The notes below the pieces were generated by a model. It had not been told where the DNA came from, searched no databases, and worked only from the letters and a program-made list of their open reading frames with translations. Made by a program: the position numbers and the translations under genes. A stretch of DNA of 64,000 nt. Origin: an uncultured Prevotellaceae bacterium. Lineage in GTDB: Bacteria; Bacteroidota; Bacteroidia; Bacteroidales; Muribaculaceae. Below are positions 8,866-32,857 of this stretch, piece after piece; positions within the stretch are counted from its first letter, which is position 1, and each line of letters begins with the position of its first letter. The stretch spans positions 20,933 to 84,932 of the forward strand of contig ONJS01000010.1 in assembly GCA_900318205.1 (NCBI GenBank), written 5' to 3'.

Positions 8866-8897
8866 CGAAGATAAAGCAAAAAATCGAACTACGCAAA
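8866..8897 (-). promoter_or_regulatory. Candidate promoter of the LacI-type regulator
   Basis: On the minus strand a -7-like TATCTTCG (8866-8873, one change from TAnnTTTG) follows a TTTG at 8894-8897 with 20-bp spacing. The TTTG lies inside the palindromic operator. Confidence 0.45.
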
Positions 8898-8905
8898 CGA
8901 TTGCA
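8892..8905. promoter_or_regulatory. LacI-type operator 1 (susC operon and regulator gene)
   Basis: CGCAAACGATTGCA, a palindrome with a central CG as in LacI-family operators. It matches two further sites in the window with consensus TGCAAMCGATTGCA. It ends 55 bp before the -7 box of the susC operon and overlaps the -33 candidate of the divergent regulator gene. Confidence 0.75.
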
Positions 8906-8960
8906 TTTATTTAAACAAAAATTTAACATTATAAAAAAAGGAAAAAAGATATAATATCTC

Positions 8961-8968
8961 TATTTTTG
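8961..8968 (+). promoter_or_regulatory. -7 box of the starch susC operon
   Basis: TATTTTTG followed by CC. No TTTG is found at the -33 distance, which would fit a promoter that needs an activator. The leader to the ATG at 9097 is about 120 nt and includes a small AGCC/GGCT hairpin near 9021-9034. Confidence 0.55.
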
Positions 8969-9096
8969 CCTTGTTTTAATTGCGGTAAAAGCCCCAATTA
9001 GGACCTCGCTGTGATTGGACAGCCTTGCTGGCTTTGCTTAACTTCAAGTATTAAATATTTGATTACCAATATAATATTAACTTTAAAAATTTTAAA

Positions 9097-12000
9097 ATGA
9101 AGCAGGTAAACATCAGAATTCCGTTTAGGATTCTTACCCTCGTGATGGGACTGTTCCTGTCACTGGGAGCCTATGCACAGATTACTGTGAATGGCGTTGT
9201 GAAGGATGCTACCGGCGAGCCTGTCATCGGCGCGAGTGTTCGTGTCGTCGGCACGCAGCAGGGTACAGTTACCGACTTTGACGGTCTCTTTACCCTCGAA
9301 GGCGTGCCCCAGGGCGCCAAGCTCCAGATTTCGTCGATTGGCTATGACGCCCAGGAGGTGACAGCAGCCAGTGACGTGGTAGTAACACTTGCCGAGAGCA
9401 GCCAGATGCTCCAGAATCTGGTGGTCATCGGTTATGGTGTCGTTAAGAAAAAAGACTTGACCGGTTCGGTCGCTTCTCTCAAGCCCGATGAGAAGAACCA
9501 CGGTCTGGTTGTTAACGCACAGGACATGATCCAGGGTAAGATTGCCGGTGTGAACGTGACCAGCGGTGACGGTGTGCCTGGCGGCGCTCCCACCATCCGC
9601 ATCCGCGGTGGTTCGTCACTGAACGCATCCAACGACCCCCTCATCGTGATTGATGGTCTGGCTCTGGACCGCCAGGGTGTCAAGGGTGTTGCTAACCCCT
9701 TGTCTATGGTCAATCCCGCCGACATCGAGAGCTTCACCGTCTTGAAAGACGCATCGGCCACCGCCATCTATGGTAGCCGTGGTTCTAACGGTGTCATCAT
9801 CATCACCACCAAGAAGGGTCGCAAGGGTCAGGCTCCGCGCGTGAGCTACAATGGTAGCGTCGGCTTCTCGACTGTTAAGAAGACGCTCGGTGTGCTCAAT
9901 GCCGACGAGTACCGCAACTTCATCTACAACTATTATGGTGAGGAAAGCGATGCCGCTAAGTTGCTTGGCAACGCCAACACCGACTGGCAGAAGGAGATAT
10001 ACCGCAATGCCATGACGACCGACCACAACGTGACCGTTTCGGGTGGCTTGGCCAATTTGCCTTATCGCGTGAGCGCTGGTTATACCTATCAGGATGGTGT
10101 CTTGAAGACCTCCAACTTCCAGCGTGCCACTGTCAGCGCAACATTGAACCCCTCGTTCCTGAACGACCATCTGAATTTCAACATCAATGGTAAATTCATG
10201 TATGCCAAGAACCGTTATGCTAATGGCTCGGCCATTGGCGAGGCTGTTCGCATGGATCCCACCCAGCCCATTATGGTGGCTGAAGGCTTTGATAAATTCG
10301 GTGGCTACTTCACTTGGACCGACAAGGGTGATCTGGGTGATCCCAATTTCCCGCTGGTTCCCAACCGTAACACGGCCAAGAACCCTGTCGCTCTGCTCAA
10401 CGAGAAGGACGACCGCGCCAACTCCTACGACTACATGGGTAATGTCGAGGTGGACTATCAGATCCATGGCTTTGAGGACCTGCGCTTGCACATGAACCTC
10501 AGCGGTGACTGGAGCAACGGTAAGCAGAACACCTACTACGCTCCCTGGGGTCCGACAAACTTCTACTATGGCAATGACGGCTTCACCAAGGAGAAAAAGT
10601 ACAACTTGACCTATTCAGCCTATGCTCAGTACTTCAAGGACTTCACCGAGACCCAGCACTTCGACATCATGGGCGGTTATGAGTGGAGCCACAATAAATA
10701 CTGGGGCAACTCTTATTACACTGGCTGGTATCCTGCCACTAACGAGACCACACTGGAAGATGGTACTCCCGCCGCAGGCAAGGCCTACAAGCCCAGCATT
10801 GGCGAGTGGAAGCAGGAGAACTACCTGGTATCGTTCTATGGCCGTGCCAACTATATCGGTTGGGACCGCTATCTGTTGACCTTCACTGTTCGTCGCGACG
10901 GTTCGAGCCGCTTCAAACAGCACTGGGCAACATTCCCCTCGGTAGCATTAGGTTGGAAGATCAGCGAGGAATCCTTCTTGAAGGACCTCGGCTGGATGGA
11001 TGAACTCAAGCTCCGTCTGGGTTGGGGTAAGACCGGTCAGCAGGATGGTATCGGTAACTACAACTACTTTGCTAGTTATAATGTGAACACCAACAACACC
11101 GACGGTCGTTATCCTCTCGTGGGCCTGAACGACGAAGGTCTTCTCTATCGTCCCGATGCTTTCAACTTGGATTTGAAGTGGGAGACCACTACGACCTACA
11201 ATGCCGGTCTTGATTTCATGTTCTTCCATAACCGCTTGAGCGGTAGCTTTGATTACTATTACCGCAAGACCACTGACCTGATCAATACCGCTACTGTATC
11301 GGCAGGTTCTAACTTCCGCAACCAGGTGCCCCAGAATATCGGTTCACTGGAGAACCGCGGTTTTGAGGCTTCGATTACCGTTCGTCCCATCTCGACCGAG
11401 GACTGGCAGTGGGAGCTCACCGGTAACTTTACCTATAACAAGAACAAGATCACTGAGTTGACAGGTGAGTCAGCACTCGTTAGAACGGGTGGCATCTCGG
11501 CAGGTACCGGTAACACCGTACAGGCCCATGCTGTTGGTCACCCTGCAAGCTCGTTCTATGTCTATCAGCAGGTCTATGGCGAGGACGGCCGACCCTTGGA
11601 GGGCGTCTTTGTTGACCGCAACTCCGATGGTCAGATTTCGGAGGACGACCTCTATTTCTACAAGAGCCCGGCAGCTCCCTACACCGCTGGCTTGAGCTCA
11701 CGTCTCCAGTACAGGAATTGGGACCTCGGTTTCAACCTGCGTGCCAACTTCGACAACTATGTTTACTGGGATAGAGGCGCTGGTTATTCTAACGTCGCAA
11801 AGCGTTATGACAGCTCATTCGGCTATCTCCAGAACGTGATTCCCCAGGCTGTTGCTAACGGTTGGACGACCTATGACAAGGTGGTCAGCGACTACTTCGT
11901 GCGCAACGCTTCGTTCCTCAAGTGTGACAACATCACGCTGGGTTACAGCTTCGCCAACCTCCTGCACAGGGGTAACTGGCAGGGTATGAATGGCCGCGTT

Positions 12001-12132
12001 TATGTAAGTGCTACCAACGTGTTCACCATCACCAAGTATGATGGCCTTGATCCTGAGGTCTTCGGTGGTATTGACGGTGGCATTTATCCCCGTCCCTTCA
12101 CAGTTCAGCTCGGTCTGAACATGAATTTCTGA
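9097..12132 (+). CDS. susC: SusC family TonB-dependent maltooligosaccharide transporter
   Basis: Outer-membrane import channel of the starch locus. The 1011 residues are near the size of Bacteroides thetaiotaomicron SusC. A signal peptide (about 1-27, ending AYAQ) is followed by a carboxypeptidase-regulatory-like domain (ITVNGVVKDATGEPVIGASV), a short TonB-box-like NLVVIGYG segment, a plug with TIRIRGGSSLNASNDPLIVIDG, and a beta-barrel ending in FTVQLGLNMNF. SusD, two SusE/F-like lipoproteins and an amylase follow on the same strand. A LacI-type operator lies upstream. Starch specificity is inferred from the neighbours, not from the channel itself. Confidence 0.93.
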   Translation: MKQVNIRIPFRILTLVMGLFLSLGAYAQITVNGVVKDATGEPVIGASVRVVGTQQGTVTDFDGLFTLEGVPQGAKLQISSIGYDAQEVTAASDVVVTLAESSQMLQNLVVIGYGVVKKKDLTGSVASLKPDEKNHGLVVNAQDMIQGKIAGVNVTSGDGVPGGAPTIRIRGGSSLNASNDPLIVIDGLALDRQGVKGVANPLSMVNPADIESFTVLKDASATAIYGSRGSNGVIIITTKKGRKGQAPRVSYNGSVGFSTVKKTLGVLNADEYRNFIYNYYGEESDAAKLLGNANTDWQKEIYRNAMTTDHNVTVSGGLANLPYRVSAGYTYQDGVLKTSNFQRATVSATLNPSFLNDHLNFNINGKFMYAKNRYANGSAIGEAVRMDPTQPIMVAEGFDKFGGYFTWTDKGDLGDPNFPLVPNRNTAKNPVALLNEKDDRANSYDYMGNVEVDYQIHGFEDLRLHMNLSGDWSNGKQNTYYAPWGPTNFYYGNDGFTKEKKYNLTYSAYAQYFKDFTETQHFDIMGGYEWSHNKYWGNSYYTGWYPATNETTLEDGTPAAGKAYKPSIGEWKQENYLVSFYGRANYIGWDRYLLTFTVRRDGSSRFKQHWATFPSVALGWKISEESFLKDLGWMDELKLRLGWGKTGQQDGIGNYNYFASYNVNTNNTDGRYPLVGLNDEGLLYRPDAFNLDLKWETTTTYNAGLDFMFFHNRLSGSFDYYYRKTTDLINTATVSAGSNFRNQVPQNIGSLENRGFEASITVRPISTEDWQWELTGNFTYNKNKITELTGESALVRTGGISAGTGNTVQAHAVGHPASSFYVYQQVYGEDGRPLEGVFVDRNSDGQISEDDLYFYKSPAAPYTAGLSSRLQYRNWDLGFNLRANFDNYVYWDRGAGYSNVAKRYDSSFGYLQNVIPQAVANGWTTYDKVVSDYFVRNASFLKCDNITLGYSFANLLHRGNWQGMNGRVYVSATNVFTITKYDGLDPEVFGGIDGGIYPRPFTVQLGLNMNF

Positions 12133-12167
12133 TAACTAATGACAATAGAACTTCAATATTCTTAGAT

Positions 12168-13874
12168 ATGATGAACTTAAGTTTTTTCAAAAAGATAATG
12201 CTTGGCGCAACCTGCCTGCTCGCTACAGGATTGAGTTCTTGTGTCAATGACCTGGATGTTACTCCGATCGACCCGAGTACTACTATGGAGGCCGACGAGG
12301 TTGCTCTGTTCACCAAGTGCTATGCCACTATGGCCCTTGCTGGTAACACTGGCGCCAACGGCGATTGCGACATCGACCGTCTGGATGGCGGTACCACAGG
12401 TTTCGTTCGCCAGCTCTGGAATGCCAATGAGTTGACCACCGACGAGGCCATCTGTGCTTGGGGTGACCCTGGTATTCCCGGTTTTAACTATAACCAGTGG
12501 GATGCATCCCATCCCATGCTGGAGGGTTTCTATAACCGCCTCTACTCGAGTATTTCCTATTGCAACCACTATCTCGAGTTGTTCTCTGGCGTTGACAAGA
12601 CGCGTGAGGCCGAGGTGCGCTTCCTGCGCTGCCTGTACTACTATCACTTGATGGATTGCTACGGCAATGTGCCTTTTGCCACCACAATTCTCATGACCTC
12701 GCTCCCCGAGCAGATTCAGCGTGCTGACCTGTTCAAGTGGATTGAGGAGGAATTGCTGGCCGTGAAGGATGATATGATGACTCCCGCAGCTCGTAAGAGC
12801 ACTGACAATGGTTATGGCCGCGCCGACCAGGATGCTGCCAATCTGTTGCTGGCCCGTATGTACTTGAACGCTGAGGTTTATACCGGCACTGCCCGTTGGT
12901 CCGACGCGCTGAAGTATGCCAAGATGGTCATCGATGGTCCCCACAAGCTTTGGACTAACGGCACCGACCAGTGGAGCGCTTACCAGATGCTCTTTATGGG
13001 TGACAACGGTGAGAATGGTGCTTCTCAGGAAGCTATCCTTCCCTTGTTGCAAGATGGCTTGAAGACCACCAGTTGGGGTACTACCCTGTTCCTGATGGCT
13101 TCGACCTGGAAGAGCGACATGGATGAGAGTCTCTATGACCTTGGTAACGGTGACGAGGGCTGGTTGCCCACTGGTACCGTGGATAACGATCCCGACGATG
13201 GCATTGACACCGTTCTGATTCGCAGCTATGCTTATGGCACCACCGAGTTCTGGGCTGGTAACCGTGCACGTTTCCAACTGCTTCAGAAATTCTTCCCTGG
13301 TGGTACTGTGCCCAGCGTGAATATCCAGAATATGGTTGAGGCTGCTGGCGATGACCGTGCCTTGTTCTACGGCAAGGGCCGCACCGCTAATGTGGACAAT
13401 CCCAGTGAATATACCTCGGGTTATGCTGTTGGTAAGTACCGCAACACCTACTCGACGGGTGCAAATTCACACAGTACACAATTTGTTGACGCTGACTACT
13501 TCCTGATGCGTTCGGCCGAGGCTTACCTCATCGCTGCCGAGGCTGATGCCCGCCTGAATGGTGGTCAGACGACTCCCGAGGGTGCCGGTTACATCAATGC
13601 ACTGCGCAACCGTGCCAACACTTGGACTGTAAGCCAGTACTCTCTGGATCAGATTCTTGACGAGCGTTCACGCGAGTTGTATTACGAGGGCTTCCGCCGC
13701 ACCGACCTTATCCGTTATGGATACTTTGGTGGTGACAGGAGCGGTGCTTATCTGTGGGAGTGGAAAGGCGGTGCCCAGAATGGTGCCCCGATTCCCGCAT
13801 TCCGCAACCTGTTTGCTATTCCTGCCGAGGACGTGAATGCCAATCCCAAGCTCGTTCAGAACCCAGGTTATTAA
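12168..13874 (+). CDS. susD: SusD family starch-binding outer-membrane lipoprotein
   Basis: Partner lipoprotein of the SusC channel 35 bp upstream. The 568-residue protein has a lipobox LSSC (Cys25) followed by VNDLDVTP. Typical SusD features are the N-terminal EEVALFTKCYATMALAG helix, AEVRFLRCLYYYHLMDCYGNVPF in the TPR region, and the C-terminal RSAEAYLIAAEADARLNG and ILDERSRELYYEGFRRTDLIRYGYF. It would bind starch at the cell surface and hand chains to SusC. Being next to two SusE/F-like proteins and an amylase makes starch the likely ligand. Confidence 0.93.
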   Translation: MMNLSFFKKIMLGATCLLATGLSSCVNDLDVTPIDPSTTMEADEVALFTKCYATMALAGNTGANGDCDIDRLDGGTTGFVRQLWNANELTTDEAICAWGDPGIPGFNYNQWDASHPMLEGFYNRLYSSISYCNHYLELFSGVDKTREAEVRFLRCLYYYHLMDCYGNVPFATTILMTSLPEQIQRADLFKWIEEELLAVKDDMMTPAARKSTDNGYGRADQDAANLLLARMYLNAEVYTGTARWSDALKYAKMVIDGPHKLWTNGTDQWSAYQMLFMGDNGENGASQEAILPLLQDGLKTTSWGTTLFLMASTWKSDMDESLYDLGNGDEGWLPTGTVDNDPDDGIDTVLIRSYAYGTTEFWAGNRARFQLLQKFFPGGTVPSVNIQNMVEAAGDDRALFYGKGRTANVDNPSEYTSGYAVGKYRNTYSTGANSHSTQFVDADYFLMRSAEAYLIAAEADARLNGGQTTPEGAGYINALRNRANTWTVSQYSLDQILDERSRELYYEGFRRTDLIRYGYFGGDRSGAYLWEWKGGAQNGAPIPAFRNLFAIPAEDVNANPKLVQNPGY

Positions 13875-13899
13875 TCCACTCACTTAAGAATACAGTAAT

Positions 13900-15120
13900 A
13901 TGAAAAAGATATTTTTCTATGCAATGATGTTGGTGGCCTGCACTATGGCATTCACATCGTGCAGTGACGATAATGACTCTAACCCGACGCTCATTCAGCC
14001 CACTGAGTTCAAACTCAATGAGCTCACCCTTGATGCTAATGCACTGATTGACCTCGAGGAGAGCAAGACCATCCCCATGTCATGGTCACAGCCCGTGTAC
14101 ACCACCTTTAATGCTCCTGTAATTGCCACCTATTCTATCCAGGTTTCTAAGAATGGCAACTACACTAACGAGTACGATGCTAGTCAGGAGGACAATTCAG
14201 CTGCCGACTTTGTGACGCTGGACGAGACCTTCACCACTTGCAAGGTTAACGTGTCAACCGAGAGCATTGACAAAGCCCTGGTTCGTCTGTATGGATGGAC
14301 CGAGGATTCTATCATCCCCAACGAGGTTCCCGTCTTTATCCGTGTGAAGTCTGCCGTTCAGGACGCTTCGTTCAACGAGTATGGCACGGTTTATTCCAAC
14401 GTGATCAAGATGAGGGCTGTTCCCTATTACATCGAGTTGGCTGATGCTCCCATCGAGTTGTGGTACCTCACTGGTAACTGCATTGCCGATGGTTCGTGGA
14501 CCAATAGCGAAGATGCTATCGGTACAAAGATGACTCCGATGTATCCTATCCCCGGCATGGAGTATGATAAGATTACTGGCCAGGGTGTCATTGAGTATGC
14601 TGGCTACTTCCCCGAGGGTGCCCAGTTCAAGATTATTGCTAAAGCCGGATTGAGCAACTGGAATTACGGCATGTGTGGCGGTGATGAGAATGGTGGTCAG
14701 GTTTACCGTGATGGCGGTGACGATCCCGGTAATATCTCCATCACCGAGGCAGGATGGTACAGAATTGAGATCAATACTAAGACTCACGAGATGTCTTGGG
14801 ATAAACTCGGGGAATGTCCTGTCTTTACTCAGATCTCAATGCCTGGCGGATACCAAGGATGGGATACCAGCAAGAATCTCATGAATGCAGTGACTACTGT
14901 TACCGAGAACCATGACTGGTATGTTGGCAAGATGGAGATTACCGAGGACACTGAACTCAAGTTTGCTGCCGACAACGCTTGGGCTATAAACTGGGGTAAA
15001 GATGTATTCCCCTATGGTAAGGGTGAACAAGATGGCAAAAACATTCCCGTTACTGCTGGTACTTATAATGTGTTCTTCAACGACATTTTGGGCACTTATA
15101 ACTTTATCCTTATTAAGTAA
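13900..15120 (+). CDS. SusE-like starch-binding surface lipoprotein
   Basis: A 406-residue lipoprotein with lipobox FTSC followed by SDDND, a strongly acidic stretch like the Bacteroidota surface-lipoprotein export signal. The N-terminal third (about 30-175) is an Ig-like SusE domain (ELTLDANALIDLEESKTIPMSWSQPVY). Two starch-binding-like modules follow: one starting at PIELWYLTGNCIADGSW (about 185-305) and one at QISMPGGYQGWD (about 310-406), the latter ending GTYNVFFNDILGTYNF. It has no catalytic domain. Its role would be to hold starch at the surface beside SusD. It lies 25 bp after susD. Confidence 0.85.
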   Translation: MKKIFFYAMMLVACTMAFTSCSDDNDSNPTLIQPTEFKLNELTLDANALIDLEESKTIPMSWSQPVYTTFNAPVIATYSIQVSKNGNYTNEYDASQEDNSAADFVTLDETFTTCKVNVSTESIDKALVRLYGWTEDSIIPNEVPVFIRVKSAVQDASFNEYGTVYSNVIKMRAVPYYIELADAPIELWYLTGNCIADGSWTNSEDAIGTKMTPMYPIPGMEYDKITGQGVIEYAGYFPEGAQFKIIAKAGLSNWNYGMCGGDENGGQVYRDGGDDPGNISITEAGWYRIEINTKTHEMSWDKLGECPVFTQISMPGGYQGWDTSKNLMNAVTTVTENHDWYVGKMEITEDTELKFAADNAWAINWGKDVFPYGKGEQDGKNIPVTAGTYNVFFNDILGTYNFILIK

Positions 15121-15132
15121 TTAATAACAGTT

Positions 15133-15175
15133 CTGACGGATGGGCCGTGGCCCGTGCGACGGCCCACCCAGTCAG
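15133..15175 (+). promoter_or_regulatory. Intergenic hairpin between the SusE- and SusF-like genes
   Basis: Nested stem with CTGAC/GTCAG outside and TGGGCCGT/ACGGCCCA inside, without a T-run. It could stabilise the upstream mRNA end or tune expression between the two lipoprotein genes. Confidence 0.5.
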
Positions 15176-15199
15176 ATATAATATCGATACATAGTTATT

Positions 15200-16666
15200 A
15201 TGAAGAAGTTTTTATATATTGCTGCAATGACCTTGTTGCTGGCAAGTTGTACCGAGGATTTCAAGGACTGGGCAACCCCCCAGAGCAATCCCCAGGGAGA
15301 AATGGTGGCCTTCGGTAACGGTTCGGTTGCCGCTGTGGACGTCATCGATCTGGCTGAGATTCCCGAGGGTAACGATGTGGTCAAGGTGTGCAACATTACT
15401 GCTCCCACATCCAATGATACGACCTACAAACCCGAGTATATCATCTATCTGAATGATAACCCCTTCGTTCTGAATATGGATGGTACCATGAGCGTGAAGG
15501 ATCTGTCTGACTTTGTGGTATCGCTCTTCGGTCAGGCTCCCGAGGTGCGTGAGCTCACCGCTCGCGTCAAGAGCACCATGACCAACGGCGCGACCGCCAC
15601 CAGCATCATGAGTGGTGAGTTCCCCGTGAAGGTTATTCCCGCTACCCCCATGGTTTCGAGTGCTTATTATTACATCGGTACCAGCAACGGTTGGACCGCA
15701 TGTGATCCCACTTATCAGCTGGATAACGGCGGTGGTGATGTTTATTCTAACCCCGTATTCACCGTTGTAGTTCCCGCTACCGGTGAGGACAACTGGTTCA
15801 AGATCTATTCTCAGGAGACCATGGACCTCGGTGTGGACAATTTCTGGAGCGGTGACTTCATCGGCTTCGCCGTGAACGGTGAGAACGAGATGAGCGGTAG
15901 CTTCGTGGAGGGCGCTAACGACGAGATCGCATTCGCCTTCAAGATTCCCGCCGACATCCGTGCCGACAAGTATCGTCTGACCTTCGACATGCTGAACCGC
16001 ACCTTCGAGTTCGAGCCCATCATTGAGCTGGGTACTCCCGACCTGTGGTACCTCGTGGGCAGCTGCATCGGTAACGGCTCGTGGGGCAATGCTCCCGATG
16101 CCCTTGGCACTGCACTGATTCCCCTGTATCCCGCTATCGATAACTACGCAATCCTGAGCTATGTGGGCTACTTCCCCGCTGGCCAGGGCTTCAAGCTCAT
16201 CCACACGCCCGGCAACTGGGACGAGCAGTGGGGTATGACCGACGGCGTTCTCGTGAAGAATGACGGTGGCAGCGGTAACATTGAGGTGGCCGAGGATGGC
16301 TACTATCAGATTACCTATGACATGGATTTCGATGCTCTGACCATCACCAAGTACACCGGTCCTGTGGGCGTTTACGGCGCTATGGGTATGCCTGGCGACT
16401 ATCAGGATTGGAATCCTGCCGGCACGCTGATGAATCCCATGAGCTCTGTCGTTGAGAACCACGACTGGGTGAAGAAGGATGTGACTTATGGTGCTGACAC
16501 CGACCTCAAGTTTGCTGCCGACGGTAGTTGGGCTGCTAACTGGGGTGCTGCTGGCTTCCCCGTGGGCGTTGGTACCCAGGGCGGTGCTAACATCCATGTT
16601 GTAGCCGGTACCTATGATGTCATCTTCAACGACATCATGGGCAACTACTACTTCATCGCCAAGTAA
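15200..16666 (+). CDS. SusE/SusF-like multi-module starch-binding surface lipoprotein
   Basis: A 488-residue paralogue of the preceding protein with one more binding module. The lipobox is LLASC (Cys17) followed by TEDFKDW. An Ig-like N-terminal domain (about 20-145) leads into three tandem starch-binding-like modules: about 150-275 (YYIGTSNGWTACDP), about 280-385 (DLWYLVGSCIGNGSWGNAPDAL) and about 390-488 (GAMGMPGDYQDWNPAGTLMN). The last two closely resemble modules of the upstream protein, so the pair arose by duplication. It is noncatalytic and retains starch on the cell surface. A GC-rich hairpin follows the gene. Confidence 0.85.
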   Translation: MKKFLYIAAMTLLLASCTEDFKDWATPQSNPQGEMVAFGNGSVAAVDVIDLAEIPEGNDVVKVCNITAPTSNDTTYKPEYIIYLNDNPFVLNMDGTMSVKDLSDFVVSLFGQAPEVRELTARVKSTMTNGATATSIMSGEFPVKVIPATPMVSSAYYYIGTSNGWTACDPTYQLDNGGGDVYSNPVFTVVVPATGEDNWFKIYSQETMDLGVDNFWSGDFIGFAVNGENEMSGSFVEGANDEIAFAFKIPADIRADKYRLTFDMLNRTFEFEPIIELGTPDLWYLVGSCIGNGSWGNAPDALGTALIPLYPAIDNYAILSYVGYFPAGQGFKLIHTPGNWDEQWGMTDGVLVKNDGGSGNIEVAEDGYYQITYDMDFDALTITKYTGPVGVYGAMGMPGDYQDWNPAGTLMNPMSSVVENHDWVKKDVTYGADTDLKFAADGSWAANWGAAGFPVGVGTQGGANIHVVAGTYDVIFNDIMGNYYFIAK

Positions 16667-16750: not shown

Positions 16751-16764
16751 TGCAAACGATTGCA
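16751..16764. promoter_or_regulatory. LacI-type operator 2 (amylase gene)
   Basis: TGCAAACGATTGCA, an exact match to the palindromic consensus. It ends 56 bp before the -7 box of the amylase promoter. Confidence 0.75.
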
Positions 16765-16798: not shown

Positions 16799-16828
16799 TT
16801 TGGAATTGCCGATATTTTGGTATATTTG
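16799..16828 (+). promoter_or_regulatory. Promoter of the alpha-amylase gene
   Basis: TTTG at 16799-16802 and TATATTTG at 16821-16828 with 18-bp spacing match the Bacteroidota -33/-7 pair. The ATG is at 16877. Confidence 0.6.
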
Positions 16829-16876: not shown

Positions 16877-18943
16877 ATGAAAAAGATTTTTACTACAGCA
16901 CTTGTATTGATGTTGCCATTACTGATGATGGCACAGGGCTGGCCGTCAAAGTATAGCGGCGTGATGTTACAGGGTTTCTATTGGAATTCCTTTAACGACT
17001 CCCGATGGCCCAAACTCGAGGCTCAGGCCGATGAGTTCGCTGAGTTCTTTAAGCTCGTGTGGATTCCCCAGAGCGCCAAGTGTAGCAATGGTCAGTCGAT
17101 GGGCTATGATGACCTGTACTGGCTCACCAATTATACCAGCGCCTTTGGTAATGAGTCACAACTGCGCTCGATGATCAAGACCTTCAAGAACAAGGGCATC
17201 GGTACCATTGCCGACGTGGTGATCAACCACCGCGCCACCATCAACGACTGGGTGACCTTCCCCGTCGAGGTGTATAATGGTGTGACCTACAAGATGCTCC
17301 CGTCCGACATTTGCAAGAATGACGATGGCGGTGCCACTCAAAACTGGGCAAGCCAGAACGGCATTTCCTTGAGTAATAATAACGATACCGGTGAGGACTG
17401 GGGCGGCATGCGTGACCTGGATCACCGCAGCACCAATGTGCAGGAGATCGTAAAGGCTTACGTCAAGATGCTGCTCGATGACCTGGGCTATGCTGGCTTC
17501 CGCTATGACATGGTCAAGGGCTACGGTGCGACCTATACGGGCATGTACAATTCCTATGCTGCTCCCGAGTTCTCGGTGGGCGAGTACTGGGATGGCAATC
17601 AGGGTGCTGTCAAGAACTGGATCGACGGCACTAAGGTGAATGGCATCGTTCAGAGTGCGGCATTTGACTTCCCCTTCCGCTACGTCATTCGCGACGCGGT
17701 CAATAATAACCGCTGGACCAATCTGGGTACCTCTAGCAACAAGGGACTCTGCCAGGAGAACAATTACCGCCGCTATGCGGTTACCTTCATTGAGAACCAC
17801 GATACCGAGTACCGCAGTGCCAATGAGCAGCAGGATCCCATCCGCAACAACATCGAGGCCGGTAATGCCTACATGCTCGCCATGCCGGGCACTCCCTGCG
17901 TCTTCCTCAAGCACTGGATTGCTTACAAGGAGAGCATCAAGCAGATGATTTATGTGCGTCAGTTGGCTGGTGTGACCAACACAAGCAATACCTATAATGT
18001 GGACATGAATGCTGGCTCGAACTACTATGTTCAGCGCACGATTGGTGATCGTGGCGTGATCCTGGCAGCCATGGGTAGCACTTCCTATCAGATTCCTCAA
18101 AACTATGTTGAAGTGGCTAGCGGAACGAACTACCGCCTGGCGTTGAGCCGCACTACCGAGACTGCATGGGTGAGCAAACCCAGCGGTGAATATGAGGGCA
18201 CCATCGACGTGAAGTTCACAGCGGTGAGCCAGACAGGCGATGCCAAGCTCGTCTATACCATTGACGGCAGTGATCCCACCGCCAGCAACGGCACCCAGGT
18301 CGCCGATGGCACTACCATCAGCCTCGACAAGACCACGACCTTGAAGGTGGGTCTGTTGATTGGCAACGCAGTGAGCGGCGTGATTGTGCGCAACTACACC
18401 ATCGACAACTCGGAGTTTGAGCCCTATGAGATTACCGTTTTCCTCAAGGATCCTACCGTTGCGCCCAACAACTGGAGCGTGGTCAACTACTACACTTGGG
18501 ACAGCTCTAACCAGCAGTTCAACGGCAACTGGCCCGGTCAGACCATCACTGCTACCAAAATGGTCAACGGTGTCAAGTTCTACTATCACAACTATACGAT
18601 CAAGAACAAGGACTACTATGTGAACTTCGTGTTCAACCAGGGCGGTGCCACTGCCAGCAGTCACCAGACCGAGGACGTGACCGATATCAACAAGACTTCC
18701 TTCTTTGAAGTCACCACTCAGACTAACAAGTATCAGGTGCGTGACATCACCGATCAGTTCTTGCCTTATCTGGACGGTAACAAGTATGATGTGAACAATG
18801 ACGGTGAGGTGAACATTGCCGACATCAATACGATTCTTGATTTCATCCTCGCCAATTCAAGCAGTGCAACGGCTGATGTGAATGGCGACGGTGAGGTGAA
18901 CATCGCTGATGTAAACGATGAGATTGACTATATCTTGAAGTAA
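16877..18943 (+). CDS. Secreted GH13 alpha-amylase with starch-binding module and C-terminal dockerin-like repeat
   Basis: A 688-residue enzyme that cuts internal alpha-1,4 bonds of starch. The signal peptide ends near residue 20. The GH13 barrel (about 22-400) has all four regions: DVVINH (113-118), GFRYDMVKG with nucleophile Asp211, GEYW with acid/base Glu236, and FIENHD with Asp309. A chitobiase-C-like Ig domain (about 435-510) and a starch-binding-like module (about 515-620) follow. Residues 635-688 hold two dockerin-like calcium loops (DVNNDGEVNIADIN, DVNGDGEVNIADVN). There is no lipobox, so it is released or anchored another way. It has its own promoter and LacI-type operator, and a GH53 gene follows after 17 bp. 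Confidence 0.93.
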   Translation: MKKIFTTALVLMLPLLMMAQGWPSKYSGVMLQGFYWNSFNDSRWPKLEAQADEFAEFFKLVWIPQSAKCSNGQSMGYDDLYWLTNYTSAFGNESQLRSMIKTFKNKGIGTIADVVINHRATINDWVTFPVEVYNGVTYKMLPSDICKNDDGGATQNWASQNGISLSNNNDTGEDWGGMRDLDHRSTNVQEIVKAYVKMLLDDLGYAGFRYDMVKGYGATYTGMYNSYAAPEFSVGEYWDGNQGAVKNWIDGTKVNGIVQSAAFDFPFRYVIRDAVNNNRWTNLGTSSNKGLCQENNYRRYAVTFIENHDTEYRSANEQQDPIRNNIEAGNAYMLAMPGTPCVFLKHWIAYKESIKQMIYVRQLAGVTNTSNTYNVDMNAGSNYYVQRTIGDRGVILAAMGSTSYQIPQNYVEVASGTNYRLALSRTTETAWVSKPSGEYEGTIDVKFTAVSQTGDAKLVYTIDGSDPTASNGTQVADGTTISLDKTTTLKVGLLIGNAVSGVIVRNYTIDNSEFEPYEITVFLKDPTVAPNNWSVVNYYTWDSSNQQFNGNWPGQTITATKMVNGVKFYYHNYTIKNKDYYVNFVFNQGGATASSHQTEDVTDINKTSFFEVTTQTNKYQVRDITDQFLPYLDGNKYDVNNDGEVNIADINTILDFILANSSSATADVNGDGEVNIADVNDEIDYILK

Positions 18944-20386: not shown

Positions 20387-21017
20387 ATGGCTTTATGCCT
20401 GTGACGCAGATGAAGTGGCGCTCTTCATCATGGCGTGACTTGATGTCGGTGAAGCCGGCCTCAGTAAGATACTCAGTAAGTTCCTCAATCGTGTAGATGC
20501 GCATGTGGCCGACGAGCTTGGCCCATTTATGCCCTTCGGGATCAACGCCGTCGGTCTCATTGGCGATGACGACCTTGCCGCCAGATTTGAGCACGCGGTG
20601 AATCTCGGAGAGGCATTCACTGAATGAGGGCCAATAATATACCGTTTCAAATGCGGTAATCAGGTCATGGGTTTCTTTGAGTAGAGGTAACAATTTGGCA
20701 TTCCCGCCAACGATTTTGCACCTTCCGGCAGCAATGGCTTCCTTGTTGACCCTGAGAGCCATATTGATGGCCACTTGTGAGAAGTCCACACCAGAGACTT
20801 TACTATCGGGAAACTTATCAAGCATCCGGGCTACATTGGCACCGCCGCCACAGCCGATATCAGCAATAGAGGCATCGCTGTTGAGTTGAACATCCTTGAG
20901 TGCCCACTCGGCGAGGGTTCCGTGGCGCTTACCATTCATGCGGTAAACAACATAGCGTCCTAGTAGTCCCTCTGGAAGCCTGAAATTTGCATAATATGTC
21001 CTTCTTGGTGATTTCAA
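20385..21017 (-). CDS. Class I SAM-dependent methyltransferase (copy 1)
   Basis: A 210-residue cytosolic methyltransferase. The SAM-binding motif I is ADIGCGGGANVARML (about 52-66), motif II includes SGVDFS, and the HRVLKSGGKVVIANE strand fits a Methyltransf_11/25-type fold. The acceptor is unknown. It is a close paralogue of the gene at 21200-21823 (shared DIGCGGGANVARML-like core and the ending RHDEERHFICVT). The reading frame opens with TTG at 21017; an ATG at 21024 is seven bases upstream and out of frame, and the next in-frame ATG is too far inside. Either a TTG start or a one-base change near the start is possible. Confidence 0.82.
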   Translation of the reverse strand: MKSPRRTYYANFRLPEGLLGRYVVYRMNGKRHGTLAEWALKDVQLNSDASIADIGCGGGANVARMLDKFPDSKVSGVDFSQVAINMALRVNKEAIAAGRCKIVGGNAKLLPLLKETHDLITAFETVYYWPSFSECLSEIHRVLKSGGKVVIANETDGVDPEGHKWAKLVGHMRIYTIEELTEYLTEAGFTDIKSRHDEERHFICVTGIKP

Positions 21018-26753: not shown

Positions 26754-26779
26754 ATCCTGCACAACTAGTTGTGCAGGAT
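26754..26779. repeat. Perfect 26-bp palindrome at the 3' end of pulA
   Basis: Arms ATCCTGCACAACT and AGTTGTGCAGGAT meet at 26766/26767. It covers the pulA stop codon and abuts the heptad array. It could be a terminator-like hairpin for pulA, but no T-run follows. Confidence 0.7.
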
Positions 26780-28684
26780 TAGGGCACTTTGAGGCGGGAC
26801 GTTGATTTTTCCGTCGGCAATGACGGTGTTGATGCCGCCATTGGGGGTGCAGGAGGTTTTGTAGCAGACGATGGTGTAGTTGCCGTTGGGGACCTCTATC
26901 GAGCGTGCAATCTTATTGGCATTGAATGCAACATAGATATCTCCCCACTTTTCGCCGGGCACGTTGCGGCCGTTGATATGGAACGCTACGAGGTTCTGCT
27001 TAATGGGCAGGAAATGAAGGTTTTCACGCACCATGTCGGCACTGCCCATGTGGAAGGCGGGATGTGCCTTGCGCATGGCTATCAGGTTGCTGTAGTATTC
27101 CATCACTTGCGGGTAACGCTTCAGGTTATCCCAGTCCAGATGATTGATTTCATCAGGGCTCTCATAACTGTTGTGCACACCCTTCTTGTCGCGCAGCATC
27201 TCCTCGCCGCTGAGCAGGAACGGTACACCCTGAGAGGTCATCACGACAGTCTGTGCCAGCAGGTCGAGGCGGATGAGCTCGTCCTCGGTAATCTTGGGGA
27301 TGCTGGTCTTGAGGCGATCCACGAGGCACATGTCGTCGTGACAGCTCACGTAGGCTATCATCTGGGTTGGCTCGGTGGCATAGGGTGCCTTGCTGTAGTT
27401 GACCTTGCTATAGTCCACATCAGGGTGCTGGATGGCACCCACAATGCCAAACTTGATGCTCTCTTCGTTGCCGCGGATTCCACCCAGGAAAGCAGCCTTC
27501 TTGTTGCTGTCCCACGGACCGCGCAGCGCATCGCGCATCTCGTCGCTGAAGGCTGCAATACCCGGCAGATAACTGATGTTGGCCTTCATGGCCAACTTGT
27601 TCTCTGGCAGGGCGCATGCCCCAGCACTCCATCCTTCACCATAGATGAAGATGTCGCTGGGCACAGCCTTGCGGATGGCGTTCATCGTCTCAATGTCGTG
27701 CACGCCCATCAGGTCGAAGCGGAAGCCGTCGATGTGGTATTCATCAACCCAATACTTCACACTCTCGATCATGAACTGGCGCATGCTTTCGCGCTCGCTT
27801 GCCGTCTCGTTGCCGCAACCGCTGCCGTTGCTGTAGGAGCCGTCAGCGCTCTTGCGGTAGTAATAGTCGGGACGTGTGAGCTGGAAGTTGCTCCCATCAA
27901 TGTTCCAGGTGTGGTTATAGACCACATCGAGGATAACCTTGATGCCAGCCTTGTGAAGGGCCTGCACCATCTGCTTGAACTCGTTGACGCGCACCTCGGG
28001 CTTGTAAGGGTCAGTCGAGTAACCGCCCTCGGGCACATTGTAGTTCACGGGATCGTAACCCCAGTTGTACTGCGGCACGTTCAGGCGTGTCTCATCGACA
28101 GAGGCATAGTCAAACGACGGCAGGATGTGAATGGCATTCACGCCCAGCGCCTTCAGGTGCTCAATGGCTTTAGGCTCGGTCAAAGCAAGGAACTTGCCCT
28201 TGTTCTTGATGCCGCTGGATGCATCGATAGAGAAGTCGCGATGGTGCATCTCATAGATGATCAGGTCCTTGGGGGCGATGGCGGGACGCACGTCGGCATC
28301 CCATCCCTGCGGATTGGTCTGGGCCATGTCGATGATGGCGCCGCGGTTGCCGTTCACGCCGACTGCGGTTGCCCACACGCCAGCGCACTCGCCACGGAAT
28401 TTACCGCCATAATTCACGTCAAACGTGTAGAACTTGCCCTTGAGGTCTCCCTTGACGGTCGCCTGCCACAGATTGGCTTGGGATTTAGTCATCTTGACGG
28501 TCTTGGTCGCTTTCCCGCCCACACCGTCATCATAGATGCGCAAGGTCACCTGCTGGGCGTCCTCGTTGGTCTCTACCGAAAAGGTGCTCTCACCAGGGGC
28601 ATAAGCTACCCTGGTGTGAGCACTGATGGCCTGCGGTAAGATGAATGTCATGATTATCGCTACCAGTAAAGTGAGATGTTTCAT
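26765..28684 (-). CDS. pulA: Type I pullulanase (GH13 with CBM48-like domain)
   Basis: Debranching enzyme that hydrolyses alpha-1,6 bonds in pullulan and branched maltodextrins. The 639-residue protein has a signal peptide (about 1-22) and is therefore periplasmic or surface-exposed. A CBM48-like domain (about 25-120) precedes the barrel. The diagnostic YNWGYDP is at 206-212; DVVYNH follows at 253-258, GFRFDLMGV holds nucleophile Asp324, IYGEGW holds Glu350, and VSCHDD is region IV. Its start overlaps the malQ stop by 4 bp (28681-28684), implying translational coupling. It is the last gene of the transporter-malQ-pulA operon. The stop codon lies inside a 26-bp palindrome. Confidence 0.93.
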   Translation of the reverse strand: MKHLTLLVAIIMTFILPQAISAHTRVAYAPGESTFSVETNEDAQQVTLRIYDDGVGGKATKTVKMTKSQANLWQATVKGDLKGKFYTFDVNYGGKFRGECAGVWATAVGVNGNRGAIIDMAQTNPQGWDADVRPAIAPKDLIIYEMHHRDFSIDASSGIKNKGKFLALTEPKAIEHLKALGVNAIHILPSFDYASVDETRLNVPQYNWGYDPVNYNVPEGGYSTDPYKPEVRVNEFKQMVQALHKAGIKVILDVVYNHTWNIDGSNFQLTRPDYYYRKSADGSYSNGSGCGNETASERESMRQFMIESVKYWVDEYHIDGFRFDLMGVHDIETMNAIRKAVPSDIFIYGEGWSAGACALPENKLAMKANISYLPGIAAFSDEMRDALRGPWDSNKKAAFLGGIRGNEESIKFGIVGAIQHPDVDYSKVNYSKAPYATEPTQMIAYVSCHDDMCLVDRLKTSIPKITEDELIRLDLLAQTVVMTSQGVPFLLSGEEMLRDKKGVHNSYESPDEINHLDWDNLKRYPQVMEYYSNLIAMRKAHPAFHMGSADMVRENLHFLPIKQNLVAFHINGRNVPGEKWGDIYVAFNANKIARSIEVPNGNYTIVCYKTSCTPNGGINTVIADGKINVPPQSALILHN

Positions 28685-31365
28685 TGTCTTCCGCTTTGAT
28701 TGATGAGTTCTTTCACGTGGCTGTTGAATTCGTTGGAATTCATCAGCTGCTCAATGGTCATGTGCATGCGGTAGCGCCAGTAGTGGCGGGGATTGGCGGG
28801 GATGTTGATGCGCTCGGCATCGGCATCCTCCAGACGCATCTTCTCGTCGATGGCGAGCCAATCCTGCAACGACAGCAGGCACAGCATTGACGGACAGTTG
28901 AGGTGGGCACGCACAATCTCGTCAGCGAGCCAGCCGGGCAGCGGATGGGGCGCAGCGTCATTGTGCCATAGTGATGTGTTATAATACTCCTGTGTGCGGT
29001 CCCAATCCTCTTCCCACCATTGCCTCAACGTGGGCATGTCATGGGTCGAGATGGTAGCGACGCTACGGTAGGGATTGGAATTCAGGTTGCCGAACTTGAT
29101 GTGATTGTCCTTGGGCATCGATTGGATTTCGAGGCTCAGGATGCGCAATTCGTTCATCACCCATGCCACGCAGTCGGGCACCATGCCCAAGTCCTCGGCG
29201 CATACGAGCATGCGAGTTGCCTGCACCAGTTTGGGCAACTTCTTCATGGCCTCGTGATACCAGAAGTCGTTGTTGCGGTGGTAGAAGTACTCGTTGTACA
29301 GCTTGTTGAAGGCGGCCTTGTCGTTATCGTAGAGTGCCTCGTAGATAAAGTCAAATTGTACCGAGATGCGCGGATGGAACAGGGCCGGATTCTTGCGGTC
29401 GCGCACGAACAGCACGTCACTGATCAGGGCATACAGGCCGTCGCGCAGCCAGATGTCATCGTCACTCTCCTTGCCCTGGAAAGCGGCTTCAATCTTGCGC
29501 TGGGTGTCGTATTCGGGCTTCATGCGGTAGATGTCGTCATGCACACGCTCAACGTATTTCTCACGCACGGTGTCAGCCAGCCTGCCGAAGATGCGGTCCA
29601 GTACCCAATCGGCAATGAACGGCTTGGTCATCAGTTCTTCCTGGAAATTGAGGCCATAGCTGCGGATTTCCTGAGCGCTCATACCCAGCGAGGGCGAGAA
29701 CTGTCCCAGCAGACCATGAACGGCATCAATGGGGATTTCCCAAATGCGGAAGAATCCCAGCACGTGGTCTATGCGGTAGGCGTCAAAGTATTGAGCCATC
29801 TTGCGGAAACGTTTTACCCACCACTGGCAGCCGTCGGCGAGCATCACATCCCAGTTATAGGTCGGGAAGCCCCAATTCTGGCCGTTGGTCGAGAAAGCAT
29901 CGGGTGGAGCACCGGCCTGGCCGTTGAGGTTGAAGTATTTGGGCTCTACCCAAGCTTCCACACTGTCACGGCTGATGCCGATGGGGATATCACCCTTGAG
30001 GATGACATGCTTGCTCTGGGCATACTTGTGGGCACTGCGCATCTGCTTGTCAAGGAAGTACTGGATGAAGTACCACAGGCTCACTTCCTTGAAGGCCTTG
30101 GTGCGGGGATTGGCCATTGCTACACGCTCTTCGTCGGTGAGAACATGGTGGCTGGGCCAGCGTGAGAATGATGCTGTGCCATACTCGTCACGGAAGTGGC
30201 AGAATGCGGCATAGGGTATCAACCAATCCTTATTGGAGGTGAAGAACTCCTTGAACTCGTCGCTCTTGAGCACCTTTTCACCTTCCTGCTTGAACAGCAG
30301 GGTCATGTATTCCCGCTTGGCGTTGTTCACGCGCTCATAGTCGATCTGCGGTAGGGCATTGAGTTCCTTGCGCAGCTTTTCAAACTCTGCCATGCGCTTC
30401 TTGTCCTCAAGTTTGGGCAGTTGACGCATGTCGAGGTACTGCGGGTGCAGGGCATAGATGCTGATGCTGTTGTAAGGATAGCTGTCACTCCAGGTGTGGG
30501 TGATTGTAGTGTCGTTGATGGGCAATACCTGCAATGCACGCTGGCCGGTGTTGGCCACCCAGTCAATCATCAGCTTCAAGTCGCCGAAGTCACCCACACC
30601 GAAGCTGCCCTCGCTGCGCAGCGAGAAGATGGGCACCACAGTGCCCGCCAGCTTGGCGGGATAGAGGGGGAAGTAGGCCTGCTGCAGTTCATAGACGATG
30701 TGCTCACCCTCTTTCAGTACGGGAAGTAACACGGTGCGGTTATCACCGGTCTCCCAGATGGTCGGTTTGCCTTTTTCGGCCATGATGACGAACTTGAACT
30801 CGACAAAGGCCTTCTTGAAGGCGGCGCCATCAAGCGCGATGACCCACTCGTTATGGTTGTGCTCGGTCATCTTGAGGGCTTTGGTCTCATCCCAATCGCC
30901 CAAAGTGGGTTCATTACCCACGATGCCCAGGACCTCGCCGGTGCGCAATTGGGGTGCGCGTACCTTTACCTGTATGATGGTGGTGAACTTGCTCTTGGGC
31001 AGCGCCTGCTGTTTGCGCAGTGCGACACAGTCGGTAAATGCCGAGCTGTACAGGTAGCTGTCGTCAGGCATGTCATTCCAGTGGTCATAGGTGATGTATT
31101 TCGTGGCCTTGGCGGCATTCAGGTCCAGGCGGTGAGGGATGACAATCCACTCGTGGCGCAGTTCCTTGCCCTCGCGCTCCACACTGTAGTAATAATTGAT
31201 GTAGCCAGCCTTGGCAGGAACATCCAGATCACATTTCCATGTCTTGTCACTTGCGGGCTTCATGGCATGGCTTGCCACTTTCTCGCCCGAGGTGTTATCG
31301 ATGATATTGAGTACCAGGTTCTCGCCGTAAACGGTGCTGTACTCCAGATTAAATCTGACTTTCAT
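28681..31365 (-). CDS. malQ: 4-alpha-glucanotransferase (amylomaltase, GH77) with two CBM20-like domains
   Basis: Cytosolic disproportionating enzyme that transfers glucan chains between maltodextrins and releases glucose. The 894 residues are long for MalQ because of two N-terminal starch-binding CBM20-like domains (about 1-90 and 128-225; the second has VKVRAPQLRTGEVLGIVGNE and TLGDW), the plant DPE2-like layout common in Bacteroidota. The GH77 part (about 245-885) shows the catalytic YRIDHVLGFFRIWEIP (Asp nucleophile), CAEDLGMVPDCV (Glu) and STHDMPTLRQWW. No signal peptide is present. It is placed between the sugar transporter (28 bp upstream) and pulA (4-bp overlap). Confidence 0.95.
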   Translation of the reverse strand: MKVRFNLEYSTVYGENLVLNIIDNTSGEKVASHAMKPASDKTWKCDLDVPAKAGYINYYYSVEREGKELRHEWIVIPHRLDLNAAKATKYITYDHWNDMPDDSYLYSSAFTDCVALRKQQALPKSKFTTIIQVKVRAPQLRTGEVLGIVGNEPTLGDWDETKALKMTEHNHNEWVIALDGAAFKKAFVEFKFVIMAEKGKPTIWETGDNRTVLLPVLKEGEHIVYELQQAYFPLYPAKLAGTVVPIFSLRSEGSFGVGDFGDLKLMIDWVANTGQRALQVLPINDTTITHTWSDSYPYNSISIYALHPQYLDMRQLPKLEDKKRMAEFEKLRKELNALPQIDYERVNNAKREYMTLLFKQEGEKVLKSDEFKEFFTSNKDWLIPYAAFCHFRDEYGTASFSRWPSHHVLTDEERVAMANPRTKAFKEVSLWYFIQYFLDKQMRSAHKYAQSKHVILKGDIPIGISRDSVEAWVEPKYFNLNGQAGAPPDAFSTNGQNWGFPTYNWDVMLADGCQWWVKRFRKMAQYFDAYRIDHVLGFFRIWEIPIDAVHGLLGQFSPSLGMSAQEIRSYGLNFQEELMTKPFIADWVLDRIFGRLADTVREKYVERVHDDIYRMKPEYDTQRKIEAAFQGKESDDDIWLRDGLYALISDVLFVRDRKNPALFHPRISVQFDFIYEALYDNDKAAFNKLYNEYFYHRNNDFWYHEAMKKLPKLVQATRMLVCAEDLGMVPDCVAWVMNELRILSLEIQSMPKDNHIKFGNLNSNPYRSVATISTHDMPTLRQWWEEDWDRTQEYYNTSLWHNDAAPHPLPGWLADEIVRAHLNCPSMLCLLSLQDWLAIDEKMRLEDADAERINIPANPRHYWRYRMHMTIEQLMNSNEFNSHVKELINQSGRQ

Positions 31366-31393
31366 GATTTTTTATAGTTATTAGTTTTTGGGT

Positions 31394-32722
31394 TTATTTA
31401 CGCTTCTTCTCTTCGATGATGAATACGCAGGCGGCGCCGACAGCCAGCAGGATACCTGCCAACAGCAGCATGTTGCCTTGTATACTGTTCATCAGCTTCA
31501 ACAGCACGCCACCCAGGGCTGCAGCAATAATCTGCGGCACGCAGATGGTGCAGTTGAACAGGCCAAGTGCCGTACCCATGCGGCTACTGCCCTCAAAGGC
31601 GTTGGTCACCATGGTGAAAGGCATGGCGAGCATGGCAGCCCATGCGAAACCAATGAGGAAGTAGGGTACAAACAGCATGTACTGGTTATGGATAAAGGGT
31701 ACCATGGCAAAGCCGATACCACCGATGACGAGGCTCAACGCATAAGCCACCTTGATGTTCTTGAACTGCGGCAAAACGACTGCCCACAGCACACTGCCGA
31801 TGGCCTGAACGGCAAACAGGATGCCCACCCAGTTGCCCGCCAGCTGATAACCCTCGCTGGCTGCGTCGGTGGTGCCCCAAACGGTGTCGGCGATGGTGCC
31901 GTTGGTGTAGGTCCACATGTACATGAAGGCTGCCCAGCAGAAGAATTGCACCAGACCAACTTCAAAGAAGACCTTGATGGCGTGGGACTTCTGGCTCTGA
32001 CTCATCTCGGTTGAGGCTTGCTGGTTGCCTGCACCTTCAGCATTGGCGGCGGCATTGAACTCTGCCATCTGTTGCGGGGTGTACTCCTTCACATTGCTGA
32101 TGGTGTAGATGACACACAGAATGAGGATGGCAGCTCCCACATAGAAGGACCACTTCACGCTGTCGGGGACAACACCCTCAGGGGCAATGTTTGCAATGCC
32201 GATGGCCGTGAACAGGAACGGGAAGATGTAACCTACAAGCGAACCTGCGTTGCATAGGAAGGACTGGATACTGTAGGCTTTGGCCTTCTGTTTCTCGTTG
32301 ACCATGTCACCCACCATCATCTTGAAGGGCTGCATCGCCATATTGATGCTGGTGTCAAGGAACATGAGGGCAATCAGACCAAAGGTCATGGCTCCTGCAA
32401 TGGTCAAACCGAGTGAACCGGCGTTAGGCAACAGGCACATCACGATGACTGCGGCCAGCGCTCCAATCAGCAGATAGGGGATACGGCGGCCCCAGCGGCC
32501 CAGCCAAGTCTTGTCACTGAAGTAGCCCACCAGAGGCTGCACTACCATACCCATGAGCGGCGGCAAAATCCAAAAGTAACTCAGGTTGTGGGGGTCGGCA
32601 CCTAAAGTCGCAAAGATGCGGCTGATGTTGGCACTCTGTAGCGCGTAGGCAATCTGTACCCCGAAAAAACCGAAGCTGATGTTCCACAGCTGGTTAAATT
32701 TTAAATCCGGTTTAGTCTTCAT
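31394..32722 (-). CDS. MFS sugar transporter (SLC45/GPH-like), probable maltose/maltodextrin importer
   Basis: A 442-residue inner-membrane protein with about 12 hydrophobic helices. The N-terminus KPDLKFNQLWNISFGFFGVQIAYALQ and the loop PLVGYFSDKTWLGRWGRRIPY (between helices 2 and 3) match SLC45-type sucrose/maltose symporters. A long hydrophilic Gln/Glu-rich loop (about 205-245) separates the halves. It heads the operon with malQ and pulA and follows a LacI-type operator at 32844, so import of maltose or short maltodextrins is a strong inference. Confidence 0.88.
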   Translation of the reverse strand: MKTKPDLKFNQLWNISFGFFGVQIAYALQSANISRIFATLGADPHNLSYFWILPPLMGMVVQPLVGYFSDKTWLGRWGRRIPYLLIGALAAVIVMCLLPNAGSLGLTIAGAMTFGLIALMFLDTSINMAMQPFKMMVGDMVNEKQKAKAYSIQSFLCNAGSLVGYIFPFLFTAIGIANIAPEGVVPDSVKWSFYVGAAILILCVIYTISNVKEYTPQQMAEFNAAANAEGAGNQQASTEMSQSQKSHAIKVFFEVGLVQFFCWAAFMYMWTYTNGTIADTVWGTTDAASEGYQLAGNWVGILFAVQAIGSVLWAVVLPQFKNIKVAYALSLVIGGIGFAMVPFIHNQYMLFVPYFLIGFAWAAMLAMPFTMVTNAFEGSSRMGTALGLFNCTICVPQIIAAALGGVLLKLMNSIQGNMLLLAGILLAVGAACVFIIEEKKRK

Positions 32723-32780
32723 AATTCTTGTTTTTTGTTATGTTAAGTTATAGTTTCGTTCTAATATGGGTTAACACCTA

Positions 32781-32788
32781 CAAAAATA
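32781..32788 (-). promoter_or_regulatory. -7 box of the transporter-malQ-pulA operon
   Basis: Minus-strand TATTTTTG, identical to the -7 box of the susC operon. No TTTG element is seen at the -33 position. The leader to the ATG at 32722 is about 55 nt. Confidence 0.6.
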
Positions 32789-32843
32789 ACATTTTCTCGC
32801 CCGTTGTTATTATAAATAATGTGCAACAAATCAAAAAAATTAA

Positions 32844-32857
32844 TGCAACCGATTGCA
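32844..32857. promoter_or_regulatory. LacI-type operator 3 (transporter-malQ-pulA operon)
   Basis: TGCAACCGATTGCA, one base from operator 2. It stands 55 bp upstream of the -7 box, the same distance as at the susC operon. Confidence 0.75.

Follow-up and report, generated by a model that had tools for sequence, protein, structure and literature searches.

We analyzed a window of 64,000 nucleotides (positions 20,933 to 84,932 of contig ONJS01000010.1, assembly GCA_900318205.1) from an uncultured Prevotellaceae bacterium, placed in the Muribaculaceae by its GTDB lineage. The window carries a gene for a LacI-family regulator and three copies of a 14-base-pair (bp) palindrome that we regard as putative operators. 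Operator 1 (8892..8905, CGCAAACGATTGCA) is one base off the consensus, while operators 2 (16751..16764, TGCAAACGATTGCA) and 3 (32844..32857, TGCAACCGATTGCA, or TGCAATCGGTTGCA on the minus strand) match it exactly; none is assigned a strand. With up to 2 mismatches allowed, a pattern scan returns 5 strand-hits compared with a chance mean of 1.28, and none of 100 shuffles reaches 5. Based on Pfam, operator 1 precedes susC, susD, susE-like, and susF-like genes (9097..16666, plus strand), operator 2 an alpha-amylase gene with a dockerin domain (16877..18943, plus strand; its CBM26-like match of 26.4 bits is below the cut-off of 28.1), and operator 3 an operon on the minus strand (26765..32722) encoding an MFS transporter, a GH77 enzyme with CBM20 (malQ), and a pullulanase-type GH13 enzyme.

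Promoters of Bacteroidota carry TAnnTTTG at -7 and TTTG at -33, with no classical sigma-70 (PMC7366714; like all papers cited here, used in excerpt). The -7 boxes are at 8961..8968 for the susC operon (plus strand, TATTTTTG), at 16821..16828 for the amylase gene (plus strand, TATATTTG), and at 32781..32788 for the transporter operon (minus strand, TATTTTTG). The gaps, counted in bp between the operator end and the start of TAnnTTTG, amount to 55 (from 8905), 56 (from 16764), and 55 (from 32844 back to 32788). The initial annotation had placed palindromes at 8892, 16751, and 32844 with these same gaps, and re-measurement returns identical positions and values. It had also described two of the three promoters as lacking a recognizable -33 TTTG, which agrees with what we find: none is seen at the usual distance 5' of the -7 box in the susC and transporter-operon promoters, and the amylase promoter has one at 16799-16802 with a spacer of 18, outside the 19–20 bp favored by 158 control promoters.

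The regulator gene (7771..8802, minus strand) encodes 343 amino acids with a LacI helix-turn-helix domain (PF00356, 1.5e-16) and a sensor domain (Peripla_BP_3, PF13377, 1.3e-30), both above the curated cut-off. Among solved structures, the only ones compared, its profile matches CcpA best (E 1.4e-72). This protein is the single PF00356 match in the genome and is therefore the natural candidate for all sites. Its own promoter has a -7-like box at 8866..8873 (minus strand, TATCTTCG), 18 bp from operator 1, and a TTTG inside operator 1 (8894..8897, minus strand) lies at the -33 position with a spacer of 20; that operator 1 covers this element had been proposed before and holds.

Operator-to-promoter spacing in related genomes

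When the gap between operator and -7 box is left free from 40 to 70 bp, the pattern occurs 147 times in 58 of 101 genomes, compared with a single match for the reversed control. Within the genus of the window's genome, 116 of 137 matches have gaps of 54–56 bp, and with one vote per downstream gene family (41 groups) 62% are found at these distances, versus 10% expected from an even spread. Several of the odd gaps stem from the opposite side of a site that already has a good box. If a box is not required, 37 same-genus genomes contain 101 exact operators, 81 of them with a box at 53–57 bp; of the remainder, 5 have a box elsewhere in the 40–70 bp range (46, 52, 65, 65, and 66 bp) and 15 have none. 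Among the 11 box-less operators listed, 8 look like chance matches, with G at variable position 1 or C at variable position 2.

The same distance emerges from loci chosen by the regulator, i.e. 80 loci around its orthologs, searched for operators with up to 1 mismatch and for boxes within 0–130 bp on either side. These hold 131 operators, 104 with a box at 53–57 bp, and 174 boxes, of which 142 are at 54–56 bp against a background of about 0.2 per other distance. The 253 distinct spacers of 53–57 bp have a median pairwise identity of 0.33, compared with 0.31 for shuffled sequences, so it is the length of the spacer that is kept and not its sequence. We reject both chance and shared ancestry as the cause of the spacing, given the reversed pattern (1 vs 147 matches) and the near-random spacers.

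Across the order (393 genomes), 53 matches fall outside the genus, ten of which are also counted in the set of 147: 30 are at 53–56 bp, 10 at 42–46 bp, and none at 47–51 bp, with 2 matches for the reversed control. In 8 genomes of named relatives, one of them a metagenome-assembled genome (MAG), all 16 matches are at 53–56 bp. They come from 7 of the 8 genomes, i.e. Bacteroides neonati, B. muris, Prevotella aurantiaca, Hallella multisaccharivorax, H. seregens, Prevotella sp. tf2-5, and the Xylanibacter ruminicola MAG. Segatella paludivivens has no exact operator match and carries an operator with one mismatch, flanked on either side by a box at 54 bp. Genes that follow the sites in other families encode SusC-type receptors, GH77 enzymes, alpha-amylases, a DUF3417-containing phosphorylase, a glycogen debranching enzyme, a cyclomaltodextrinase-type enzyme, and another LacI-type regulator of this kind. 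Within other genera of the window's own family, only 2 of 182 genomes have a match, both with one identical sequence that has an inner G and stands 55 bp from its box; to judge from the exact pattern, this family does not have the system in general. In the regulator tree, the window's protein sits among entries labeled Prevotella, Prevotellaceae, and Muribaculaceae; transfer between families is possible, and MAG labels are unsure.

Gaps also seem to differ by whole turns of the helix. For example, homologous winged-helix genes, which may be paralogs, have gaps of 55, 55, and 56 bp in three genomes and of 65, 65, and 66 bp in three others, i.e. one helical turn apart, and two further loci, where the kinase gene was read, have a gap of 65 bp. 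An amylase gene of another family has a gap of 45 bp. Together with the 65-bp sites and the 42–46 bp group, it points to steps of whole turns.

Regulon, -33 element, and regulator promoter

The assembly searched has 3.62 Mb in 53 contigs and is 94.8% complete. It contains 22 sites with up to 1 mismatch, compared with 7 for the reversed-pattern control; 8 have a -7 box at 54–56 bp, 1 has it at 65 bp, and 13 have neither. The 8 sites comprise the three of the window and five elsewhere in the genome, and the targets of the latter are a 539-amino-acid protein with pullulanase X25 and dockerin domains, two alpha-amylases of 1,080 and 1,068 amino acids (CBM26 and dockerin), enolase (eno), and a branching-enzyme-like protein with CBM48, amylase, and C-terminal domains, which we label glgB. 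The 65-bp site (L023, G000:C32:48000-60000) precedes a DUF2582-like winged-helix gene followed by genes for an FGGY carbohydrate kinase, a xylose-isomerase-like barrel protein, and a sugar transporter, and its operator would link the use of xylose to this regulator.

The regulon thus extends beyond the three operators and the glucan genes named in the initial annotation, with at least nine operators at promoters and with eno and the xylose-type operon among the genes behind them. As predicted here, it covers starch, maltodextrin, and glycogen metabolism and parts of central carbon metabolism (enolase and the xylose-type operon). In 15 of 25 same-genus loci examined (30 loci returned, own genome included), the branching-enzyme gene has a site at 53–54 bp that deviates from the consensus at no more than 2 positions. 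A search of the window's genome for extra members at exactly 55 bp, allowing up to 3 mismatches over operator and box, gave 9 matches versus 3 for the control: 5 were already known at up to 1 mismatch, and 4 have 3 mismatches, one being the known site with a gap of 56 bp.

We find that promoters with an operator largely lack the -33 element. The -7 box nearest each open reading frame of at least 150 amino acids was taken as the promoter in loci of the named relatives, in the window, and in loci of its own genome. Promoters with an operator of up to 2 mismatches at 40–61 bp (n = 133, of which 127 have a gap of 54–56 bp) were compared with controls whose best site has at least 4 mismatches (n = 158), those with exactly 3 mismatches being excluded. 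In control promoters, spacers of 19–20 bp are preferred and 20 is the commonest. Of the 133 operator promoters, 3 carry a -33 TTG at these distances, compared with 47 of the 158 controls (P = 4e-11). By comparison, TTG at a spacer of 8–11 does not differ between the two classes (11/133 vs 12/158).

An ortholog of the regulator (E ≤ 1e-20) is present in 59 of 61 same-genus genomes, and, with 2 mismatches allowed, 74 of 78 orthologs examined have an operator upstream, the palindrome being centered on CpG. When the regulator's own -7 box is located in 79 orthologs, it falls at 53–56 bp in 52, at 18 bp in 16, at 48 bp in 4, and at other distances in 3, and the remaining 4 have no operator with up to 2 mismatches. 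The 18-bp state, which was scored with the looser box TAnnTTnG and includes the window, places the operator's own TTG at a spacer of 20 from the -7 box, so that the bound regulator would cover its own -33 element. All 16 orthologs in this state also have a divergent box at 53–57 bp. In the 53–56 bp state, a single operator has both divergent promoters at 53–57 bp in 45 of 52 cases, and B. neonati has two operators, one per divergent promoter, both at 54 bp.

On the tree, the 16 members of the 18-bp state represent one change with moderate support (91). Because the 52 orthologs at 53–56 bp include Bacteroides, the 18-bp state is most simply read as derived within this set. A regulator of another family (L206) also has 18 bp, so this state may have arisen twice or be older. 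More distant regulators (L207–L223) mostly lack the arrangement at their own gene. Based on position, the 18-bp layout of the window's clade is expected to repress the regulator gene, and the 53–56 bp layout, which mirrors that of susC, is expected to activate it.

Mode of action

Taken together, these patterns make it very probable that a LacI-family protein binds the palindromes and acts mainly as a class-I-type activator at fixed spacing. Specifically, the 7771-8802 protein would bind the 14-bp palindrome as a dimer, with the operator center about 73 bp upstream of the transcript start as placed from the -7 box, and would hold RNA polymerase, in the manner of a class I activator, at promoters that have a good -7 box and no -33 element. 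Contact with polymerase probably involves the C-terminal domain of the alpha subunit, placed between operator and -7 box, and the effector is probably maltose or maltodextrin. The near symmetry of the dimer and of its site would let a single operator act on both of two divergent promoters. The same binding event would, in the window's clade, repress the regulator gene while activating susC, because the regulator promoter takes the operator TTTG as its -33 element; a regulator seated over this element is best read as a repressor.

Activation from about 75 bp upstream had been suggested in the initial annotation and, at about 73–75 bp, gains support from the kept distance, the near-random spacers, and the missing -33 element. 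Its further suggestion that one site activates susC and represses the regulator is likewise favored by the 18-bp layout, found in the window's clade (16 of 79 orthologs). In the genome scan for the 14-mer, also proposed there, 8 of 22 sites have the -7 box at 54–56 bp, and 13 have no box at this distance or at 65 bp. More broadly, we consider it likely that many Bacteroidales, those of rumen and gut among them, possess a LacI-family class-I-type activator of starch, maltodextrin, and glycogen genes, with the operator 54–56 bp, or one turn off this distance, from the -7 box and with the -33 element lost. One symmetric site would fire two divergent promoters, and one lineage would have turned autoactivation into autorepression by moving the promoter from 55 to 18 bp.

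A second factor, such as a Crp-like protein or a regulator of polysaccharide utilization loci, could bind within the 55-bp spacer and activate jointly with the LacI-family protein, which we judge unlikely. The motif CATTATn(1-3)ATWA is found in 21 of 30 transporter-promoter spacers (in the window, the spacer at 32789-32843) and is possibly the site of a second regulator, and AT-rich stretches lie 5–10 and 17–22 bp past the operator. However, the motif occurs in only 4 of 100 other promoters, and the spacers are otherwise dissimilar: no second element common to all of them was seen, and only the transporter promoters share one. A run of T after the operator, apparent in a logo of 130 mostly same-genus sites, proved weak in less redundant spacers (26/141) and was discarded. 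By eye, four loci (L398, L406, L408, and L409) have terminator-like inverted repeats and T-runs inside a spacer of 54–55 bp, with the spacing intact; these repeats resemble terminators of the preceding gene.

Several observations weigh against the activator model. The 13 of 22 near-consensus sites in the genome without a suitably placed box are one, and the enolase site is another, as it is present (up to 2 mismatches, gap of 52–56 bp) in 9 of 22 same-genus loci (30 returned, own genome included). The matches are also not independent, because many of the promoters are orthologous and many operators of the regulator loci are the one between regulator and susC. For the -33 element, TTG at a control spacer of 28–31 differs in the same direction (5/133 vs 17/158, P = 0.027), and a small part of the difference is accordingly due to base composition. 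Taken alone, the 42–46 bp peak is modest and some of its members may be chance matches, and in four orthologs (L263, L268, L272, and L278) the regulator's -7 box is at 48 bp, out of helical phase. Finally, most well-known LacI-family proteins are repressors.

This last point is the starting one for a conventional repressor, which would lie upstream by coincidence. It would form loops, or get in the way of another activator or of RNA polymerase, and come off the DNA in the presence of maltose. At the regulator's own gene, the 18-bp spacing is indeed that of a repressor, and at the lev operon CcpA represses by obstructing another activator from a site upstream (PMC3463425). Such a protein has no need, however, for a single helical phase 55 bp from the -7 box over near-random spacers, nor for promoters without a -33 element. 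Loops would mostly lack a near partner, since only 7 of the 104 operators with a box at 53–57 bp have a second site within 500 bp at up to 1 mismatch (9 at up to 2 mismatches). Repression at these promoters is therefore very improbable in our view, and an activator that touches RNA polymerase explains best the one helical phase, the absent -33 element, and the near-random spacers. That a different DNA-binding protein uses the palindromes is extremely unlikely, given that a CpG-centered palindrome is typical for the LacI family (compare the cre consensus, PMC3463425), that the genome has one LacI domain, and that a site lies upstream of the regulator in nearly all orthologs examined.

Comparison with known systems

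CcpA of Bacillus is likewise a LacI/GalR-family protein with a CpG-centered palindromic site. Sites upstream of the promoter serve it for activation and sites overlapping the promoter for repression, depending on the face of the helix (PMC3463425), so one LacI-family protein can do both according to position. Unlike with CcpA, the promoter sites here are mostly in the activating place; moreover, CcpA works with HPr-Ser-P, and the present promoters belong to the Bacteroidota type. In enteric bacteria, FruR/Cra is also a LacI-family protein and a dual repressor and activator of carbon metabolism, and for PckR the sign of regulation has been predicted from site position (both PMC4052901). Cra represses glycolytic genes and activates gluconeogenesis, whereas the operator of eno, a glycolytic gene, has the position expected for activation in this system. 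LacI-family activators such as CcpA and Cra are already known, and our literature searches returned no description of the present geometry.

In Bacteroides thetaiotaomicron, sus genes are activated in response to starch by SusR (PMC3878776). SusR is a membrane-spanning sensor with a DNA-binding domain of the SusR type, in contrast to the regulator here, in which Pfam assigns residues 8–340 of 343 to LacI helix-turn-helix and Peripla_BP domains and whose presumed site is a short palindrome. LacI regulators of Bacteroides have been linked to uronate pathways (PMC3878776, PMC4052901), and predicted sus loci of B. fragilis and B. uniformis contain a LacI-type regulator, an MFS transporter, and a GH65 gene, with no SusR homolog (PMC11633381). 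In its excerpted text, the latter paper gives no operator, spacing, or mode of action for these regulators. The B. muris locus L323 resembles these loci, with a LacI-type gene, a transporter, and a GH65 gene (Pfam), and has operators at 54–56 bp. OsuR of B. fragilis was reportedly described in 2006 as an activator of maltose-induced starch genes.

Some Muribaculaceae starch loci carry SusR (PMC8636109), and the excerpt of a study of starch use in Segatella copri mentions no such site (PMC11784079). In the open-license literature, as far as the excerpts go, we found no description of the operator or of its spacing, which is not proof of absence. A parallel in geometry is E. coli CRP at class I promoters, where a dimer also sits upstream at a fixed helical phase, whole-turn shifts are tolerated, and the upstream element is poor. 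Unlike in that system, the protein family and the sigma factor are different ones, and the contact with polymerase is one that we infer.

To our knowledge, the way in which activators act on Bacteroidota promoters is little understood. With their strict geometry and natural one-turn shifts, these promoters are well suited to in vitro reconstitution of activation, and the regulator is a candidate for controlling starch use in Bacteroidales without SusR. In addition, the two layouts of its own promoter amount to a natural experiment in switching between negative and positive autoregulation, and additional regulon members can be sought with the geometry (14-mer, 54–56 bp, -7 box).

Dockerin domains are unusual for Bacteroidales. 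In the window, Pfam finds a type I dockerin on the amylase (16877-18943) and on the adjoining GH53 protein (18961-20331), and three more proteins of the predicted regulon in this genome have one as well.

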